DNA of 64,000 nucleotides, taken from NCBI RefSeq assembly GCF_013415885.1, contig NZ_CP058910.1:3720001-3784000 (forward strand), read 5' to 3'. The notes under the pieces were generated by a model. The model was not told where the DNA came from. It saw only the letters and a list, made by a program, of their open reading frames with translations, and ran no database searches. This DNA comes from Halosimplex rubrum (GTDB taxonomy: Archaea > Halobacteriota > Halobacteria > Halobacteriales > Haloarculaceae). Below, piece by piece: positions 7,741 to 18,830 of this stretch. The translations under genes and the position numbers were made by a program. Every line of letters starts with the position of its first letter. Position 1 is the stretch's first letter.

Positions 7741-8154
7741 TCAGTCGATATCGAGCCGCTCGTAGAACGTTCTGGGCGTGACGATATCGACACCACGGAA
7801 CTCGTCGAGGTCCAACAGGTGCCGGTCGCCCGAGACCAGATACGTCACGTCACCCGCGATCGCCGCTTCGACGAACTTGTCGTCGTCCGGGTCCGCAGAG
7901 ACGGCAGCGATGTCAGACCCCGGGTCGACGAACTCCGCGAAGTACCGGACCGTCTCGACTTCCCGGCGGATCTCCGAGTCGGACATCCCGAACCGGTCAG
8001 GGTACTTGCGGAGCGTCTCGCGGAACTCGGCGAGCGTTTCCGCCGACGCGACGATATCGTAGGTCCCGTCGAATCCGGCCACAAGAACGTCGTGGGGAAC
8101 GCCGGTCGCGATCACTCCGGAGATGAGGACGTTCGTATCGAGAACCGCCCTCAT
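7741..8154 (-). CDS. PIN-domain ribonuclease toxin (VapC-like)
   Basis: This 137-residue PIN domain starts with the typical VLDTNVLIS (Asp6 as first acidic metal ligand). It has a central Glu (AEFRETLRKYP), and later acidic residues in DPDDDKFVEAA and SGDRHLLDL. Such proteins are Mg-dependent RNases. Its start overlaps the last 4 nt of the upstream AbrB-type gene, the standard antitoxin-toxin order. It most resembles the PIN group often called putative toxin PIN domain with the KYPDRFG segment. The target RNA cannot be predicted. Confidence 0.9.
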   Translation of the reverse strand: MRAVLDTNVLISGVIATGVPHDVLVAGFDGTYDIVASAETLAEFRETLRKYPDRFGMSDSEIRREVETVRYFAEFVDPGSDIAAVSADPDDDKFVEAAIAGDVTYLVSGDRHLLDLDEFRGVDIVTPRTFYERLDID

Positions 8155-8414
8155 TCGTCCTCGTCGCGCGCCTCGTGGACCAACCGGTTCACCTCGCTCG
8201 TCGAGAGATCGACCTCGTCGGCGCGGCGTTCGACCCGTTCGTGGAACTCCTCGACCGACGGGAGCTCGACTTTCTTCAGGACCAGCCCGTGGTCCGTCGG
8301 GACGACCATCAGTTTCGTTCCCTTCTCCAGCCCGAACTCCTCGCGGAGGCGGCTCGGGATCGTGACCTGCCCCTTCGACGTCACCGTCGTCAGTTCCGGG
8401 TCGTCCGTGCTCAT
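8151..8414 (-). CDS. AbrB/MazE-type antitoxin
   Basis: This 87-residue protein has an N-terminal AbrB-like swapped-hairpin DNA-binding domain (TTVTSKGQVTIPSRLREEFG, residues ~9-28) and a C-terminal charged helical part that would wrap the PIN toxin. An upstream in-frame ATG at 8444 is possible. The ATG at 8414 is preferred because a perfect palindrome (8419-8435) lies directly before it and is more useful as an operator than as coding sequence. It forms a two-gene operon with the PIN toxin. Autorepression through the palindrome is inferred. Confidence 0.88.
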   Translation of the reverse strand: MSTDDPELTTVTSKGQVTIPSRLREEFGLEKGTKLMVVPTDHGLVLKKVELPSVEEFHERVERRADEVDLSTSEVNRLVHEARDEDE

Positions 8415-8418
8415 CTCA

Positions 8419-8435
8419 CGTAAGGATTCCTTACG
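8419..8435. promoter_or_regulatory. Palindromic operator candidate for the AbrB-PIN operon
   Basis: CGTAAGGA-T-TCCTTACG is a perfect 8-bp inverted repeat around one central base. It lies 4 nt before the antitoxin start codon, overlapping where a leaderless transcript would begin. Its position and symmetry suit autoregulation by the antitoxin or toxin-antitoxin complex. Confidence 0.55.
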
Positions 8436-8546
8436 CCGACGCATGAATCTGTCGTCGAGATAGCTCCCGGAGTCGTTCAGGTCCGAGAGGCGGAAGCCGC
8501 CACCCGAAGCCGAACCCTTAACCGCGTCTCGGCGGAACTCGGGAGT

Positions 8547-10393: not shown

Positions 10394-11128
10394 TCACAGG
10401 CTCGCGAGGTTCTGCCGGAGTTTGATGGTCGCGGTCATCAGGGCGGTGGCGGTCATGATGACGAAGACGATCTGGACGTGCATGACGACGACGCGGTCGA
10501 GGCCGGCGACGGTGGCCAGATCGACGGCGGGGACGAGCGTGGCGAAGGCGAGGACGGGCAGCAGGTGGCGGAGCAGCGAGTCGATCATCGTGCCCTGGAC
10601 CATCGCGGCGGCGGTCTGGCGGCGGCCGAACCAGAAGCCGTAGCCGGCGAAGGCGAGCGCGCCGACGCCCTGGAGCGCCAGGAGCGGGCGTCGGAGGCCG
10701 ACGAGGGCGACCCCGAAGACGACGGCGGCGACGACGCCGACGAAGGCGACTTCGACGAGGCGGCGACCGGGGAAGACGTCGTCGGCGCCGGTCGTCGAGA
10801 GCGCGGCGTTGAAGTAGATCTCTCGCACGGACAGCGCGAGCAGGAGGACGACCGCGAGCATGAGGCCGGTCTTGTAGGGGGTCCGGATCGAGGTGACGAT
10901 CTCGAGGACGCCGACGACGCCGTAGCACGCGGCGACCAGCCCGACGTACAGCAGGTACTCCCAGAGGACCCGCTGGGCGTCGACGCCGGTGGCGCGCATG
11001 TTGAGGTAGGCGTAGGCGCCGAAGCGGGCGGCGATGACCGTCAGGAGGACGAGCCCGATGAAGACGATGAACGTCAGGTTGGGGTTGTCCGCGACGAGGT
11101 AGAGCCCGACCTTCACGTCACCGGCCAT
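10394..11128 (-). CDS. Multi-spanning membrane protein overlapping the kinase-like gene
   Basis: This 244-residue protein has about seven predicted membrane helices and short loops. I do not recognise a named family. The start codon lies inside the end of the upstream kinase-like gene (11-nt overlap, 11118-11128), so the two are almost certainly one operon and translationally coupled. Charged residues sit mainly at helix ends (YLNMRATGVDAQRVLWEYLL, SVREIYFNAALS). The context suggests a membrane partner of the kinase-like protein, but no function is known. Confidence 0.8.
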   Translation of the reverse strand: MAGDVKVGLYLVADNPNLTFIVFIGLVLLTVIAARFGAYAYLNMRATGVDAQRVLWEYLLYVGLVAACYGVVGVLEIVTSIRTPYKTGLMLAVVLLLALSVREIYFNAALSTTGADDVFPGRRLVEVAFVGVVAAVVFGVALVGLRRPLLALQGVGALAFAGYGFWFGRRQTAAAMVQGTMIDSLLRHLLPVLAFATLVPAVDLATVAGLDRVVVMHVQIVFVIMTATALMTATIKLRQNLASL

Positions 11129-12656
11129 CGGGGTCGACCCCCCGAAGCTCCCGCCGGAACTGCCTGACCGTCTCGTACCTGGTGAGTTTCCCCGTCGCCG
11201 TCGCCTTGCGCACGACCTGGTCCAGCCCGCGGGGGAGGTCCGGGTCGACCTCGCTCGGCACGGGCGCCCGGTCGGAACACACCCCCGAGCGGATCTCCTC
11301 GCCGGTACCGCGATACGGTGGTTCGCCCGTCACGAGTCGGTAGAGCAGGGCGCCGAGGCCGTACACGTCGGTGGCGTGGTCGACGCTGCCGAACCGCTCC
11401 GAGTAGTGTTCGGGGGCGGCGAACCTGGGGTCGACGACGTTCGCGAGGCCCAGGTGGTCGGCGTAGACGCGCGCGAGGCCGAAAGCCGCCGCTCGCGGGC
11501 GCTGGCGCTCGCGCTCGGTGAGCGTGTCGCCGGGGTAGGCGACGGTCGCGGGGTCGAGCGCCCCGTGGACGACGCCGTGCTGGTGGGCGTGGGCGACGGC
11601 GTCGGCGACCTCGACTACGTTCGCGACGGCCTGGCGCACGTCGAGGGCCTCGTCTTCCCGGTCGGCCAGCGTGGTCCCCGTGTGCTCCAGCGCGGCCCAC
11701 GGCCGCGGACGCAGGCCCCAGTCGTGGACCGACACCACCGAGTCGTGGCCGTCGACGCCGGCCCAGGCGTCGAGGGCGTCCCGGAGCGCGCCGGCGAACG
11801 CCGTCCGGTCGTCGTCGGGCACCCGGAAGACGGTCAGCGAGAGGGGGACCTCCGCGTCGTCGACCGTCCCGACGGCGCGGTAGCGGTCGCCGAACCGCCC
11901 TTCGGTGCGGTCCGAGAGGACGGACAGGTCGTCGAAGCGGCTCCGGTCGATCACCGCCGACAGGCGGCGCGTGACCAGCGCCAGTCGCCCGCGCGTCAGC
12001 TCCCGACGGCCGTCGTCGGCGCCCTCGCCGTCCGACTCGCTCTCGTCGGCTTCGGGGTCGCCCTCGTCGGCTTCGGGGTCGCCCTCGTCGGCTTCGGGGT
12101 CGCCCTCGCCTTTCGCCAGCGTCGACGGGTCGAGGTCGGCGCCGGGCGAGCGGTCGGTGTAGACGCGTTGACCGCCGGCCTCGCCGGTCTCGCCGCCCGC
12201 AACGCGTGCCCGGCCGACGCCGCGGTCGCCCGACGTGGGCGAGAGATACTCGCTGCGGGCGAACCCGCCGCCGGACTGGTAGAGGTGCTCGCGCGCCCGC
12301 AACTCCAGTTGCTCGTCCAGATCCGTGACCGCCTCGTCGACCGCCTTCGGCCGGCGGGCGGCGAGGTAGTCGAGCGCGTGCGGGACTTCGACGGGCGAGT
12401 CGTCGTCCAGCCGGTCGACCAGCCGGCGGACGACGGGGTCGAGCAGGTCCGGGTCGGCCTCGACGACGAGACAGAGCGCGAGCGCCGCCCGCAGTCGCTG
12501 CGGGCGGTCCTCGCCGTCGAGCGCGCCGAGCAGTTGCGGCATGCGTTCGTCACCGCGCTCGGGGTCGTCGAGGACGGTCACGACCGGGTCGTCGTCGCCG
12601 TCGCTCCCGCCGGCTTCCGTCCCGTCTCGGCTCGCCCCGTCGGTGTCCTCGGCCAT
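11118..12656 (-). CDS. Protein kinase-like protein lacking catalytic residues (pseudokinase) with N-terminal HEAT-like region
   Basis: A 512-residue protein. Residues ~35-125 look like HEAT-type helical repeats (LRAALALCLVVEADPDLLDP). Residues ~180-215 are an acidic linker with three GDPEADE copies. Residues ~255-505 have the order of a Hanks-type kinase. The usual VAIK Lys is absent (PLSLTVFRV). HRDLKPxN is replaced by H364-GALDPAT (no catalytic Asp, Lys or Asn). DFG is A391-FG. Structural motifs remain: APE (A414-P415-E416) and the helix-F DVYGLGALLY (D430). It should fold like a kinase but not transfer phosphate, and may act as a scaffold for the overlapping membrane protein. Confidence 0.85.
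   Translation of the reverse strand: MAEDTDGASRDGTEAGGSDGDDDPVVTVLDDPERGDERMPQLLGALDGEDRPQRLRAALALCLVVEADPDLLDPVVRRLVDRLDDDSPVEVPHALDYLAARRPKAVDEAVTDLDEQLELRAREHLYQSGGGFARSEYLSPTSGDRGVGRARVAGGETGEAGGQRVYTDRSPGADLDPSTLAKGEGDPEADEGDPEADEGDPEADESESDGEGADDGRRELTRGRLALVTRRLSAVIDRSRFDDLSVLSDRTEGRFGDRYRAVGTVDDAEVPLSLTVFRVPDDDRTAFAGALRDALDAWAGVDGHDSVVSVHDWGLRPRPWAALEHTGTTLADREDEALDVRQAVANVVEVADAVAHAHQHGVVHGALDPATVAYPGDTLTERERQRPRAAAFGLARVYADHLGLANVVDPRFAAPEHYSERFGSVDHATDVYGLGALLYRLVTGEPPYRGTGEEIRSGVCSDRAPVPSEVDPDLPRGLDQVVRKATATGKLTRYETVRQFRRELRGVDPDGR
12042..12104. repeat. Three tandem 21-bp repeats inside the kinase-like gene
   Basis: The unit CTCGTCGGCTTCGGGGTCGCC occurs three times in exact tandem (starts at 12042, 12063 and 12084; the third copy ends as GCC before diverging). 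On the minus strand it encodes GDPEADE x3 in the acidic linker. In-frame units of this kind easily change copy number by slippage without breaking the protein. Confidence 0.85.
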
Positions 12657-12868: not shown

Positions 12869-14506
12869 GTGGTCCGCGTGCTGACGAAAGCCATCGAGTC
12901 CGTGAAGGTCTTCGCCGAGAACAACCCCTCACTGGCCGACCTCGCCCGCGGTCGGCGGCGTCGGTTCGACGACGCGGAGTGCGTCCTCCCCTCACGGGTC
13001 GTCACGACGGAGTCGCTGTCGGCCACCGTCTCGGTCTGGGACGAGTACCTCCGCCTGCTCCCCGACTACGACGGCACGCTCACCCTCGACAGCACCGACC
13101 CCGAGGCGATCTACCCCGAGGAGGTCGACTTCGGACTGACCGACGAGGCCGTGACGGAACTGGCGGGCGTCGCCTTCGAGACGCCCGGCGTCCAGTACCT
13201 GACGCTCACCGACGAGTCGGGGCGGCGGTTCACCAGCAACCCCGTCCAGGTGTTCGACTCCGAGCCCGACGAGCGCCTGTTCTGGGGGGACATCCACCTC
13301 CACTCGCAGTTCTCCGACGGCGCGGGGTCGATGAGCAAGGGCTTCGAGTTCGGCCGCGACGTGATGGACCTCGACGTGGTCGCCTACACCGACCACGACA
13401 CGATGGGATTTTTCATCCCGCCGAAGCTCCAGCGCCGCCGGATGCACAACGGCTACTTCGAGGACATGAAGACCGTCACGAAGCACTTCCACGACCCCGG
13501 GGAGTTCGTGACGCTCTTTGGCTACGAGTGGACGAAACAGCCGAACATGGGCGGTCACATCAACGTCTACTTCGAGGGGGTCGACGAGGCCGAGCTGTTC
13601 GACTCGCTGGACACCGACACCAACCGCTACGAGAAGCTGTTCCGCCGCCTGCAGACGTGGCGCGAGGAGACCGGCAACGAGGTGCTGGCCATCCCCCACC
13701 ACCCCGCCGAGGCGATGTACCCCCTCGATTTCTCGGCGATGGAGTACGACGACGACATCGCGCCGCTGGTCGAAGTGTACTCCCAGTGGGGCTCCAGCGA
13801 GCTGCCGGGCGAGGAGGGCAACCCCAAAGCGATCCGGATGGGCCAGGGCGAGATGGCCGACCCCGGCCACTACGTCCGGGACGCCCACGAACTGGGCTAC
13901 CGCGTCGGCATGATGGGGTCGTCTGACTTCCACGCGCCGCGGCCGGGCCGGTCGCACATCCACCTGCCGCCCCATCTCCCCTCCCTGTCGGACATCTGGG
14001 AGGACGGGATCGGCTGGGGTCACATCTGGCGGGTCTGGGACGAGGGGAGCTACCCCGGCGGGCTGACCGGCTTCTACGCCGAGGACCTCTCGCGGGAGAG
14101 CATCTTCGAGAGCCTGCGTTCGCGGCGGGTGTACGCGACCAGCCAGCCTCATCGGATCCTCGCGGAGTTCGCCGTCGACGGGACGGCGGTCGGCGAGGAC
14201 GACAGCACCGTCGTCGCCGACGGCGAGCGGACCGTCGAGTGGCTCGTCGCCGGGACCGCGCCGATCGAACGGGTCACGGTCGTCAAGAACAACGCCGACT
14301 GGCACGTCGTCGGCGGGACGGCCGACGAGTCGGCCGACCTGGACGCCTACACCGAGGCCGGCGAGGTCACCGACGACGAGCCCGTGACCGGGATGGCCTG
14401 GGACGACGAGCGCGGCAGCGACGCCGACGTGTACTACCTGCGGGTCGAACAGGCCGACGACGGGATGGCGTGGGCCGGCCCCCTCTGGGTCGAGCCCGAG
14501 GCCTGA
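12869..14506 (+). CDS. DUF3604 family protein (PHP-like)
   Basis: From the GTG at 12869 the protein has 545 residues. Residues ~40-130 form an Ig-like segment ([26 protein letters not shown]). The main domain then begins with [11 protein letters not shown] (residues ~138-148) and continues with [18 protein letters not shown] and [10 protein letters not shown]. These are His/Asp clusters like the metal site of PHP-type phosphoesterases. The biochemical role of DUF3604 is not settled. The start is doubtful: the best promoter points to an ATG at 12801 in another frame, so the N-terminus may be longer and frameshifted. Confidence 0.8.
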
Positions 14507-14602
14507 GCGGACCGGTCGAACCCACCGGGATCCGCGGCGGTCGCGGCACGATTCTCCGCATCGACCGAGCGCGGCTATCACGGCTGAGAATCGCGCACGA
14601 AC

Positions 14603-14610
14603 GCTTTACA
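14603..14610 (+). promoter_or_regulatory. TATA-like box of the htrII-sopII operon
   Basis: GCTTTACA lies 25-32 nt upstream of the transducer ATG at 14635, consistent with a leaderless bicistronic transcript. No second promoter fits in the 2-nt gap before the rhodopsin gene. Confidence 0.5.
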
Positions 14611-14634
14611 GGGAGTACTCCTCGGTACCGAACG

Positions 14635-16944
14635 ATGACATCGGATGCACCTTCTCTCTTGCCCGGGGTGATACGGCGGTCGTACGCCGCCCGCCTCGGC
14701 GCGGCGCTCGCGGTCGCGGTCGTGGTGATGGTCGGCTTCGGGGCCGTCATCAGCACGCAGGCCTCGGCGACGCTGCAGGACGACGTGGAGAACGACCTGC
14801 GGACGCTCTCGGAGACGCGGACGGCCGAACTCGACTCGTGGCTCGGGAGCGTCCAGCGGGAAGCCGCGCTCACGTCGCAGCTCTCGGCCGTCCGTTCGGG
14901 CGACGGCGCGGCGGTCGACGAGGCGCTGACCGCCCAGTTCGAGTCCGGGACCGTCCCGCCGGACGTGGTGGCGATCCACTACCTGAACACCGAGTCGATG
15001 GTGTTCACGGAGAGCACGAACGACGAGTTCGAGGGGCTCAGTCCCGCCGACCAGGGCGCGCCGTTCGCGACCGATCCGCCGGCGTTCGACGGGCCGGACG
15101 ACACCTACGTGACGGAGCCGTTCGCGGTACCGGCGGTCGACCACCCGGTCGTCGCCGTCGTCACGCCCGTCCCGGGCGCCGAGGACCGCGCGCTCGTGTT
15201 CATGACCGACCTGGCCGCGCGGTCGTCGTCGCTCGCCGACGCGAACGCCGACACCTCGACGGTCGTCGTCAACGCCGCCGGGCGGTACGTCGCCCACCCC
15301 AACGAGAGCAAGATCCTCACGCCCCACGAGGGCCACGAGACGAACGCCTCGGCCGCGGCGGGCACGACGGCGTTCATGGACATGGGCGATACCCTCATGG
15401 CGAGCACGAAGATGGAGACCAAAGACTGGACCGTCATGATCCACTCCCCGAAGGACGTTGCCTACGCGCTCGGCTCGCAGATCAACTCCGACCTGGTGGG
15501 GCTGGTGCTGCTGGCGATCATCAACCTCGGGCTCGTCGGCGTCACCATCGGGAGCAACACGATCATCTCGCTGCGTCGCATCTCCGAGCGGGCGGAATCG
15601 ATGGCCGACGGCGACCTGGCGGTCGACCTCGCGACGACCCGGGAAGACGAGATCGGCGCGCTCTACCGGTCGTTCCAGGACATGCGCGACTCGATACGCG
15701 AGCAGATCGCCGAGACCGACGAGGCTCGCGCCGAGGCCGAGGAGGCCCGCACCGAAGCCGAGGAGGCGCGCCAGCGCGCCGAGCGGGAGGCCGCCGAGAT
15801 GGAGTCGATGACGACCCATCTGGAGGCCAAAGCGACCGAGTACGGCGACGTGCTCTCCGAGGCCGCCGACGGCGACCTGACCCGTCGGGTCGACCCGGCG
15901 AGTGACAACGCGTCGATGGCGTCGGTCGGCGAGAGCATCAACGAGACGCTCGACGCGCTGGAGGAGACCATCGCGCGGATGAAATCCTTCGCCGACGACG
16001 TGTCGGACGCCGGCGAACAGGTCGGGACCGGCGCCGAGCGAGTCGACCAGGCGAGCGAACAGGTGACCGCCTCGATCTCGGAGATCTTCGACGGGACGAC
16101 CGAGCAGTCCGAGCGCCTGGAGACGGCCGCCGGCGAGATGGAGAACCTCTCGGCGACGGCCCAGCAGGTCGCCTCCTCGGCTCAGGAGGTGGCGACAACC
16201 TCCCAGCGAGCCGCCGAAGCCGGCGAGGAGGGCCGCGAGGCCGCCAAGCGCGCCATCGAGGAGATGGGCGCTATCGACGCCGAGACCGAGGAGACGGTCG
16301 CGGCCATCAACGACCTCGACGACGAGCTCGACGAGATCGGCCAGATCGTGAGCGTCATCACGGAGATCGTCGAGCAGACGAACATGCTGGCGCTGAACGC
16401 GAGCATCGAGGCGGCCCACGCCGACGGCGACGGCGCCGGCTTCGCGGTCGTCGCCGACGAGATCAAGGGGCTGGCCGAGGAGACCAAGGAGGCCGCCGGC
16501 GACATCGAGTCCCGCATCGACGGCATTCAGGCGCAGGCGGGCGAGACGGTCGAGCGGATGGAGTCGACGAGCGAGCGGGTCACCGACGGCGTCGGGACGG
16601 TCGAGGAGGCCGTCGACGCGCTGGAGACCATCGTCGAGCACACCGAGGAGGTCGACACCGGTATCCAGGAGATCGACGACGCCACGGAGGAACAGGCCCG
16701 GACCGCCCAGGAGGTGATGGGGACTATCGACGATCTGACGGCGATCAGCCAGCAGACGGCGACGGAGGCCGACACGGTGGCCGGGGCGGCAGACGACCAG
16801 TCCCAGTCGATCGACCGGGTCGCGGCCTCCGCCCGCGACCTGCGCCAGCGGGCCGAGGAACTGACGACGGCGCTGTCGCGCTTCGAGACGCGAAACGGCG
16901 CCGGGAACGCGGAAACGGCCGCGATCGCGGCCACGGAGGACTGA
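14635..16944 (+). CDS. htrII: Methyl-accepting phototaxis/chemotaxis transducer (HtrII-like)
   Basis: A 769-residue membrane transducer. TM1 is at ~16-40 and a large external sensor region at ~41-280. TM2 (~282-306) is followed by a HAMP domain (~307-360) and a long coiled-coil signalling domain. The hairpin-tip consensus [18 protein letters not shown] lies around residues 578-595, with acidic/Gln-rich methylation-type helices on both sides. It should pass signals from the rhodopsin encoded 2 nt downstream to CheA/CheW. The large ectodomain, unlike the short one of Natronomonas HtrII, suggests it may also sense a chemical, as reported for Halobacterium HtrII. The longer in-frame extension upstream of 14635 is rejected. 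Confidence 0.88.
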
Positions 16945-16946
16945 CA

Positions 16947-17672
16947 ATGCTGGGACTCACGACCTGGTTCACGATCGGTACGCTCGGAATGGTCGTCGGG
17001 ATCGCGATGCTGGCCTACGGCACCCTGTTGGTCCCATCGGAACGCCGGCGACAGCTCGCGCTGGCGGCGCTCGTCCCCGGGATCGCGGCGGTCGCCTACG
17101 CGGTCATGGCGCTCGGGGTCGGCGGACTCGTGACCGCGGACGGCGGGACGGTCTTCGTCCCGCGCTACGTCGACTGGCTGTTGACGACGCCGATCCACGT
17201 CGCGCTCGTCGCGCTGATCGCCGGCGCGTCGACGCGCGCCATCGCTCGCCTCGCCGCGCTGCAGGCGGCGACCATCGTCTTCGGGTTCGTCGGCGCGACG
17301 CTCGCGGCCCCGCTGAACTGGGCGCTCTACCTCGTCGGTAGCGCCTGTTTCGTCGGCGTCGTCTACCTCCTGTTCACGGAGACGGCGGCGCTGGCCGACG
17401 AGAAGCCCGACGACGTGGCCGCCCTGTTCCGGAAGCTCCGGGCGTTCGTCGTCGTCCTGTGGCTGGTCTACCCGGTCATCTGGCTGGTCGGTCCCGCGGG
17501 CTTCGAGATCATGGACATCGAGACTACCGCGCTGGTCGTCACGTACATCGACGTGGTCGCGAAGGTCGGCTTCGGCCTCATCGCGATCAACGACTTCGTC
17601 AAGATGGCCGCCGCGACCGACGAAACCGCCGACGCGGACGCCGCCGTCGGCGACCCGCAGGCCGCCGACTGA
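16947..17672 (+). CDS. sopII: Sensory rhodopsin II-like photoreceptor
   Basis: This 241-residue protein has seven membrane helices and a microbial rhodopsin signature. R73 and D76 lie in VPRYVDWLLTTP (helix C counterion region). Leu87 sits at the position of the proton donor of bacteriorhodopsin, so it is a sensor rather than a pump. Y175 lies in helix F, and D202 and Lys206 (retinal Schiff base) in helix G. The stretch GIAAVAYAVMALGVG matches Natronomonas SRII very closely. The Tyr that contacts the transducer (Y200) is kept. The residue before the Lys is Ala205 instead of the Thr/Ser usual in SRII. The gene follows its transducer after 2 nt, the usual htrII-sopII order. Confidence 0.88.
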   Translation: MLGLTTWFTIGTLGMVVGIAMLAYGTLLVPSERRRQLALAALVPGIAAVAYAVMALGVGGLVTADGGTVFVPRYVDWLLTTPIHVALVALIAGASTRAIARLAALQAATIVFGFVGATLAAPLNWALYLVGSACFVGVVYLLFTETAALADEKPDDVAALFRKLRAFVVVLWLVYPVIWLVGPAGFEIMDIETTALVVTYIDVVAKVGFGLIAINDFVKMAAATDETADADAAVGDPQAAD

Positions 17673-17822: not shown

Positions 17823-18794
17823 TCAGTGGATGCCCATCGCTTCGATCTGTTCCTGGTAGCGGTTTCGGATGGTGACCTCTGTCACCTGCGCCACGTCGGC
17901 GACTTCGCGCTGTGTCTTCTTCTCGTTGCACAGCAGGCTGGCCGCGTAGATGGCGGCGGCGGCGTAGCCGGTGGGCGATTTGCCCGAGAGCAGGCCCTTC
18001 TCGGCGGTCACGTCGATGATCTCGTTGGCCTTGGCCTGGACCTCCTCGGAGAGCTCCAGCTCGGAGACGAACCGGGGGACGTACTGCTTGGGGTCGACCG
18101 GCTCCATCTTCAGGCTGAGTTCCTGGGCGACGTAGCGGTAGGTGCGGCCGATCTCCTTCTGCTCGACGCGGGAGACCTCCGAGACCTCCTCGAGCGAGCG
18201 GGGGATGTCCTCCTGGCGGCAGGCGGCGTACAGACAGGCGGTGGCGACGCCCTCGATGGAGCGGCCGCGGATGAGGTCCTCGTCGAGCGCGCGACGATAG
18301 ATGACCGACGCCACCTCTCGAACGGACCGAGGCACGCCCAGCGCGGAGGCCATGCGGTCGATCTCCGAGAGCGCGAACTGGAGGTTGCGCTCGCCGGCGT
18401 CTTTCGTTCGGATGCGCTCCTGCCACTTGCGCAGTCGGTGCATCTGCGAGCGCTTCTCCGACGACAGGGAGCGACCGTAGGCGTCCTTGTCCTTCCAGTC
18501 GATCTGGGTGGTCAGCCCCTTGTCGTGCATCGTCTGGGTCGTCGGCGCGCCGACCCGCGATTTCTCCTGTCGCTCGCTGTGGTTGAACGCCCGCCACTCC
18601 GGCCCGCGGTCGATGTTGCCCTCGTCGATGATCAGTCCGCAGTCCTCGCAGACGATCTCCCCGCCGTCGGCGCTCGTCACGAGCGCGGACGACTCACACT
18701 CCGGACACTGCTGCTGTTCGGCCTGCTCGTCCGTTTGTTCCTCCTGTTTTTCCTCGGACTTCACACGCTCGCGCTGGCGGCTCGGCCGTTCCAT
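17823..18794 (-). CDS. tfb: Transcription initiation factor IIB (TFB)
   Basis: A 323-residue general transcription factor. It has an N-terminal zinc ribbon ([10 protein letters not shown] ... CEDCG, residues ~30-52), a B-finger/linker region with [18 protein letters not shown], and two cyclin-fold repeats. The second repeat ([19 protein letters not shown] and a C-terminal helix-turn-helix [11 protein letters not shown]) binds the BRE next to TATA. It would recruit RNA polymerase to TBP-bound promoters. A start at 18824 is possible in frame but would lie on the promoter, so the ATG at 18794 is chosen. Haloarchaea usually have several TFBs; this could be any of them. Confidence 0.93.
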
Positions 18795-18820
18795 TGTTCT
18801 TATATAGACAAATTTTGGGA

Positions 18821-18830
18821 ACATATAAAC
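18821..18830 (-). promoter_or_regulatory. TATA box of the tfb gene
   Basis: ACATATAAAC (minus strand GTTTATATGT) is centred ~31 nt from the tfb ATG at 18794. The surrounding 45 bases are unusually A/T-rich for this genome, including a second TATATA at 18800-18806. The same box would also suit a rightward start at 18852. Confidence 0.6.

Follow-up and report, generated by a model that had tools for sequence, protein, structure and literature searches.

The locus and its genes

The window, i.e., the whole stretch of 64,000 nucleotides that was analysed, corresponds to C1:3720001-3784000 in a complete haloarchaeal genome of 4.48 Mb. Two genes lie side by side on its minus strand, the first (11118..12656) coding for a 512-aa pseudokinase composed of HEAT-like repeats, a linker, and a Hanks kinase fold, and the second (10394..11128) for a 244-aa seven-helix membrane protein (7TM protein) without a family in Pfam, NCBIfam, or PADLOC. 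The pseudokinase gene was delineated from its open reading frame, Pfam and PDB sequence matches, an AlphaFold model, Foldseek, and motif alignment, and the 7TM gene from its open reading frame and the predicted helices. The genes overlap by 11 nt (ATGGCCGGTGA, 11118..11128, minus strand). Both reading frames, their overlap, and the kinase motifs had been described in an earlier note on this DNA, and that observation is confirmed. For this locus the closest named relatives are species of Halosimplex, and in four genomes of the same genus the pseudokinase is conserved at 78-84% identity over the kinase protein.

The N-terminal part of the 512-aa protein, residues 24-127 (12276..12587, minus strand), consists of HEAT-like helical repeats, modelled by AlphaFold as paired helices. 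Taken alone, the protein matches Pfam HEAT_EZ only below the cut-off (E=0.047); HEAT_2, HEAT, and HEAT_EZ are found in its relatives, HEAT_2 being matched by 10 of 50 (best E=3e-6), in agreement with the earlier proposal that such repeats precede the kinase fold. They are followed by an acidic linker, residues 128-222 (11991..12275, minus strand), which contains three GDPEADE repeats, is the fastest-evolving part of the protein, and is modelled mostly with pLDDT <50 (mostly low confidence between about 130 and 219). The kinase-fold domain starts at about residue 223 of the model and extends to residue 507 (11136..11990, minus strand). Within it, residues 334-453 match Pfam Pkinase (E=1.1e-10) and residues 296-505 match PknB in the PDB by sequence (E=1.5e-16); PknB is also a match by predicted structure (Foldseek E=7e-14, target-normalised TM-score of about 0.7-0.8). 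On these sequence and model matches, and with the APE and F-helix Asp of the C-lobe, the C-terminal part is a member of the protein kinase-like fold superfamily; the HMM search and the structure prediction both placed it inside, the opposite of the outcome that would speak against the original reading. The PADLOC PD-T4-6 models match the kinase part alone (best E=8e-29), as they would many kinases, and in these searches nothing beyond such generic kinase-domain matches suggested a role in defence.

Loss of the catalytic residues

Pseudokinases have been well studied in eukaryotes, and those of bacteria were classified only recently. In the window protein the position of HRDxKxxN is occupied by a degenerate catalytic loop, H364-G-A-L-D-P-A-T-V (11541..11567, minus strand), and that of DFG by A391-F-G (11478..11486, minus strand). 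Motif alignment places T275 in the beta-3 Lys column, A366 at the HRD Asp, D368 at the HRDxK Lys, and A391 at the DFG Asp, so that all four residues of an active Hanks kinase are replaced; A-P-E at 414-416 and the F-helix D430 are retained. Both sides of this pattern had been read correctly at the outset. A pseudokinase is defined as a protein with the kinase fold that lacks one or more of the beta-3 Lys, HRD Asp, and DFG Asp (PMC12599244), and by its aligned motifs the window protein is one.

The same motifs were compared in 70 kinase-like proteins neighbouring a 7TM homologue, of which Haloarculaceae contributed 50 and four other GTDB families 20; 69 are encoded directly upstream of the 7TM gene, and the remaining one (L152) on the opposite strand at a distance of 3.4 kb. 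The HRD Asp is missing from all 70, being replaced by Gly, Ala, Ser, Cys, or Thr, as is the HRDxK Lys, whose position carries Asp in 47 of the 50 Haloarculaceae members and in only 3 of the 20 members from other families. The beta-3 Lys is absent from 64 of the 70 (six have Lys at the aligned position) and the DFG Asp from 50, with 20 retaining it. All 70 retain the HRD His, APE Glu, and F-helix Asp, and little or no variation is seen at H364 and G393. Even within the genus the DFG Asp is variable, two close relatives (L048 and L049) having TDFG in place of AFG and retaining HG-A-LDP. Thus, the expectation that the motif losses are conserved in homologues holds without exception for the HRD Asp and the HRDxK Lys, but not for the DFG Asp. 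The loss of the former two residues together with universal retention of the APE Glu and F-helix Asp indicates that the fold has been maintained and the chemistry has not. Across the alignment, the loss of catalytic residues characterises the paired pseudokinases as a family, though some nucleotide binding is conceivable, given the six members with the beta-3 Lys and the 20 with the DFG Asp.

Homologues of similar length with intact motifs were looked for and none was found in the pairs. The closest intact relatives are seven haloarchaeal Hanks kinases (L201-L207), with open frames of 428 to 962 aa, three of which (428, 440, and 467 aa) approach the pseudokinase in length; these three fall outside its clade and do not precede a 7TM gene. 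All seven come from the same genomes as the pairs and keep every motif (AIK, HLDLKPENV, and DWG), which shows that the columns of the alignment can be relied on and that the loss is a specific one. They share with the pseudokinases the W-x-D-H feature and those from APE to the F helix, as do active kinases of the pHmuk01 clusters. Bacterial Ser/Thr kinases of the PknB type, the best PDB match by both sequence and structure, have the same fold but are catalytic, while the paired haloarchaeal proteins lack the residues required. Clusters of several long Ser/Thr kinases were seen at L190 (plasmid pHmuk01, 41675-54768) and at G120:C1:1466822-1497953. The one on pHmuk01 also includes genes for vWA, AAA ATPase, and HEAT proteins, and a PP2C-domain gene lies further on. 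The cluster members whose motifs were read are intact, and the clusters look like a separate kinase-based system.

The seven-helix protein

The 7TM protein was modelled from a 54-sequence alignment with seven helices, H16-46 to H212-243 (pLDDT 83, pTM 0.81). No convincing family match was found in Pfam, searched with one member or with 54, in NCBIfam, or in PADLOC, which bears out its initial description as an unrecognised protein with about seven transmembrane segments. Its top Foldseek matches in the PDB are rhodopsin- and GPCR-type bundles, with a TM-score of about 0.5-0.65 for the better ones and none with E<1e-3, and may reflect only the generic seven-helix bundle that it has in common with microbial rhodopsins and 7TM receptors. 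Its identity as a microbial rhodopsin was considered and rejected: hhalign against sensory rhodopsin II (SRII) gave an alignment probability of 0.8%, i.e., no profile homology, and in helix 7 of the window protein the first Lys is K236, which lies near the C-terminal end of the helix. Judged by profile and residues, it is not detectably a rhodopsin.

Conservation is strongest in helices 6 and 7 (GT..D.LLRHLLPV and H.Q.VF.IM.AT.LM..IKLRQN), which are conserved over their whole length and carry the intramembrane polar residues R187, H188, H217, and T228. A bias of conservation toward the predicted cytoplasmic face was looked for and none was found overall (p=0.9). The positive-inside signal is weak, and the N-terminus is probably outside and the C-terminus inside.

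Distribution and conservation of the pair

Of 52 pair-type loci in Haloarculaceae, 50 have the 7TM gene immediately after the pseudokinase gene and in the same orientation; of the remaining two, one is located on a 3.2-kb contig. An overlap of 1-11 nt is seen in 41 of the 50, and in 20 it measures exactly 11 nt. Across the order, a profile of the 7TM family found matches in 132 of 392 sampled genomes, from 28 genera, and none outside the order in a class-level sample. Forty further 7TM loci were inspected: 20, from the families designated here f4, f10, f12, and f17, have a kinase-like gene directly upstream, one has it 3.4 kb off on the other strand, and 19 have none. Hence, the genes are paired in 20 of the 21 further loci that have such a kinase at all. 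The neighbourhood survey proposed earlier thus finds the pair conserved across families. Carriers include Halosimplex, Halorhabdus, Salinibaculum, Halorientalis, Halovenus, Haloarcula/Halomicroarcula, and Halapricum, as well as Halorussus and Halomicrococcus, in which public annotation gives the 7TM protein as hypothetical and the kinase-like protein as a 'HEAT repeat domain-containing protein' or 'protein kinase'.

Haloarculaceae also have pseudokinases that lack a 7TM partner, placed inside the pair clade on weakly supported branches. The genome of the window itself has a second pseudokinase of the same clade (G000:C1:501509-502534; L003, L101), with no 7TM homologue in the 13-kb locus read. 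Conversely, kinase-less 7TM paralogues (L099, L100, L153-L157, L164, L166, L168, L170-L174, L176-L178, L180, L181, and L184) occur in several haloarchaeal families and form a family with strongly conserved motifs, EGT..AAL.RHLLPA and FNTAVAIRQQGGE.

Inheritance and selection

In the maximum-likelihood tree of the kinases, a branch with 98/93 support separates the pair pseudokinases from the intact kinases; L208 and L209, which are degenerate and unpaired, lie on the side of the latter with long branches. As the tree is unrooted, a single loss of catalysis is its simplest reading, not a proof. The 7TM tree likewise places all the pair proteins on one side of a 100/100 branch and the unpaired ones (19 and two found earlier) in a separate paralogue clade. 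Two placements run against taxonomy in both trees: L096 and L097, from Haloarculaceae, cluster with f4, and L185, from f4, clusters with f10. These shared discordances show the genes moving and descending together, and the two phylogenies thus indicate co-inheritance of the pseudokinase and 7TM genes.

Comparison with six relatives of the same genus (GTDB) gave dN/dS values of about 0.2-0.4 for both the kinase part and the 7TM protein, and higher ones for the linker. By this measure both genes are under purifying selection, and the reading frames are not due to chance. The same values bear on the possibility that the kinase gene is functionless and decaying, as might be suggested by the degeneration of all its catalytic motifs and by the fast evolution of the linker. 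That idea is already refuted by conservation: besides the low dN/dS of the kinase part, the open reading frames are intact in relatives of many genera, the pseudokinases occupy a supported side of the tree, and their partner is conserved.

Genomic neighbourhood

Beyond a divergently transcribed DUF3604/PHP gene, the window contains an open frame for the HtrII transducer (14239-16944), the gene of SRII (16947-17672), and a TFB gene (17823-18824). Direct searches of the genes neighbouring the pair loci found SRII and HtrII, divergently transcribed, adjoining the pair in 38 of the 50 Haloarculaceae loci, from eight genera, often with TFB beyond them. Forty genomes have both SRII and the pair, 10 the pair only, 27 SRII only, and 69 neither (odds ratio 10, Fisher p=2.6e-9, a statistic that ignores phylogeny). 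Such an association would be expected if the pair were a phototaxis accessory working with SRII and HtrII. Nevertheless, the pair occurs with no SRII orthologue in ten genomes and SRII with no pair in 27, the SRII-HtrII block, mostly with TFB, persists where the pair is absent, and no SRII was found within about 6 kb of the pair loci outside Haloarculaceae. The adjacency is real, but each partner has been lost without the other, and a phototaxis role, considered very improbable, was set aside; we read the adjacency as an old gene neighbourhood and not a functional requirement.

Two other features were noted in the surroundings of such loci. At 7741-8462 of the window a gene for a PIN-domain protein overlaps an AbrB-like gene, a probable toxin-antitoxin pair of the VapBC type. 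On three megaplasmids (L187, L188, and L189) the 7TM gene is followed, after about 1-6 kb, by a gene for a HalX-domain protein.

Comparison with known systems

The nearest likeness is to ActPs3 and the mycobacterial MviN (MurJ), in which a fully degenerate kinase fold is tied to a multi-TM protein; in bacteria the MviN pseudokinase domain regulates a membrane protein of peptidoglycan synthesis (PMC12599244). MviN is, however, a single polypeptide in which the pseudokinase is fused to the MurJ/MviN membrane domain, a different membrane protein, whereas the haloarchaeal pair is encoded by two separate genes and its 7TM protein has no Pfam family. The haloarchaeal pseudokinase differs also in its HEAT-like N-terminus, its archaeal host, and, by the motifs reported, in having HGxLDP and NVG where ActPs3 has VALT and Lsidhpsr. 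A review of bacterial pseudokinase families that covers the membrane-tied MviN domain names archaea only in the title of a reference (PMC12599244). In the literature searched, to which most subscription journals were inaccessible, neither a paper describing the pair nor a description of an archaeal pseudokinase family was found. The suggestion that the pair could be a new system is therefore upheld in part: it is described in none of the family models, annotations, and papers found, but pseudokinases tied to multi-TM proteins are known from bacterial MviN.

Proposed function

The pair might best be read, as the earlier note had it, as a membrane signalling or scaffolding unit, and with middling confidence we propose that it forms a non-catalytic membrane-bound module, in which the 7TM protein is joined by a pseudokinase acting as a protein-binding switch. 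The 7TM protein would sit in the membrane and receive a signal or ligand, or perform a membrane activity. The cytoplasmic pseudokinase, no longer transferring phosphate, would use its kinase fold to bind proteins and, in physical contact with its partner, would change its binding state in response to sensing or transport by the 7TM protein. The HEAT-like arm and the long acidic linker would hold or recruit another protein, an effector, as the scaffolding output, and translational coupling through the overlapping genes may keep the two proteins in stoichiometry. The existence of pseudokinase paralogues without a 7TM gene speaks against a role dedicated to the pair, as the pseudokinase can have work elsewhere.

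What the 7TM protein does is the main point on which explanations diverge. It may be a sensor, and, tentatively, the pair would then be a hitherto undescribed archaeal receptor system, whose signal passes through a kinase-fold partner that is dedicated to it and obligately inactive; catalysis would have been lost before the divergence of the haloarchaeal families, and the genes co-inherited ever since. The main rival, which we consider somewhat unlikely, takes the 7TM protein for a transporter, channel, or membrane enzyme, with the pseudokinase as its regulatory subunit, as in MviN, where a multi-TM protein is likewise joined to a pseudokinase (PMC12599244). The lack of an overall conservation bias to the cytoplasmic face and the weak positive-inside signal count against the proposed module. 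Conservation of helices 6 and 7 throughout, with polar residues inside the membrane, would fit a transporter or enzyme as well, but no convincing transporter or enzyme family was matched in the databases searched, and the top fold matches, all weaker than E<1e-3, are to receptor and rhodopsin bundles and not to transporters. Very improbable is a kinase-fold protein that is still an enzyme, with altered chemistry of the SelO type or another migrated active site. New catalysis on pseudokinase folds is known (PMC12599244), and the constancy of H364 and G393 and the Asp replacing the catalytic-loop Lys in most Haloarculaceae members could be taken as its trace; on the other hand, the beta-3 Lys and DFG Asp are lost from most members, the Asp is rarely kept in other families, and there is no evident replacement set of invariant polar residues.

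The non-catalytic module proposed here would offer a clear-cut two-gene example of a kinase fold that has been retained in membrane regulation for a task other than catalysis, and one that is testable in tractable haloarchaea. The pair is thereby a candidate archaeal analogue, in kind and not by descent, of receptor-coupled signalling.
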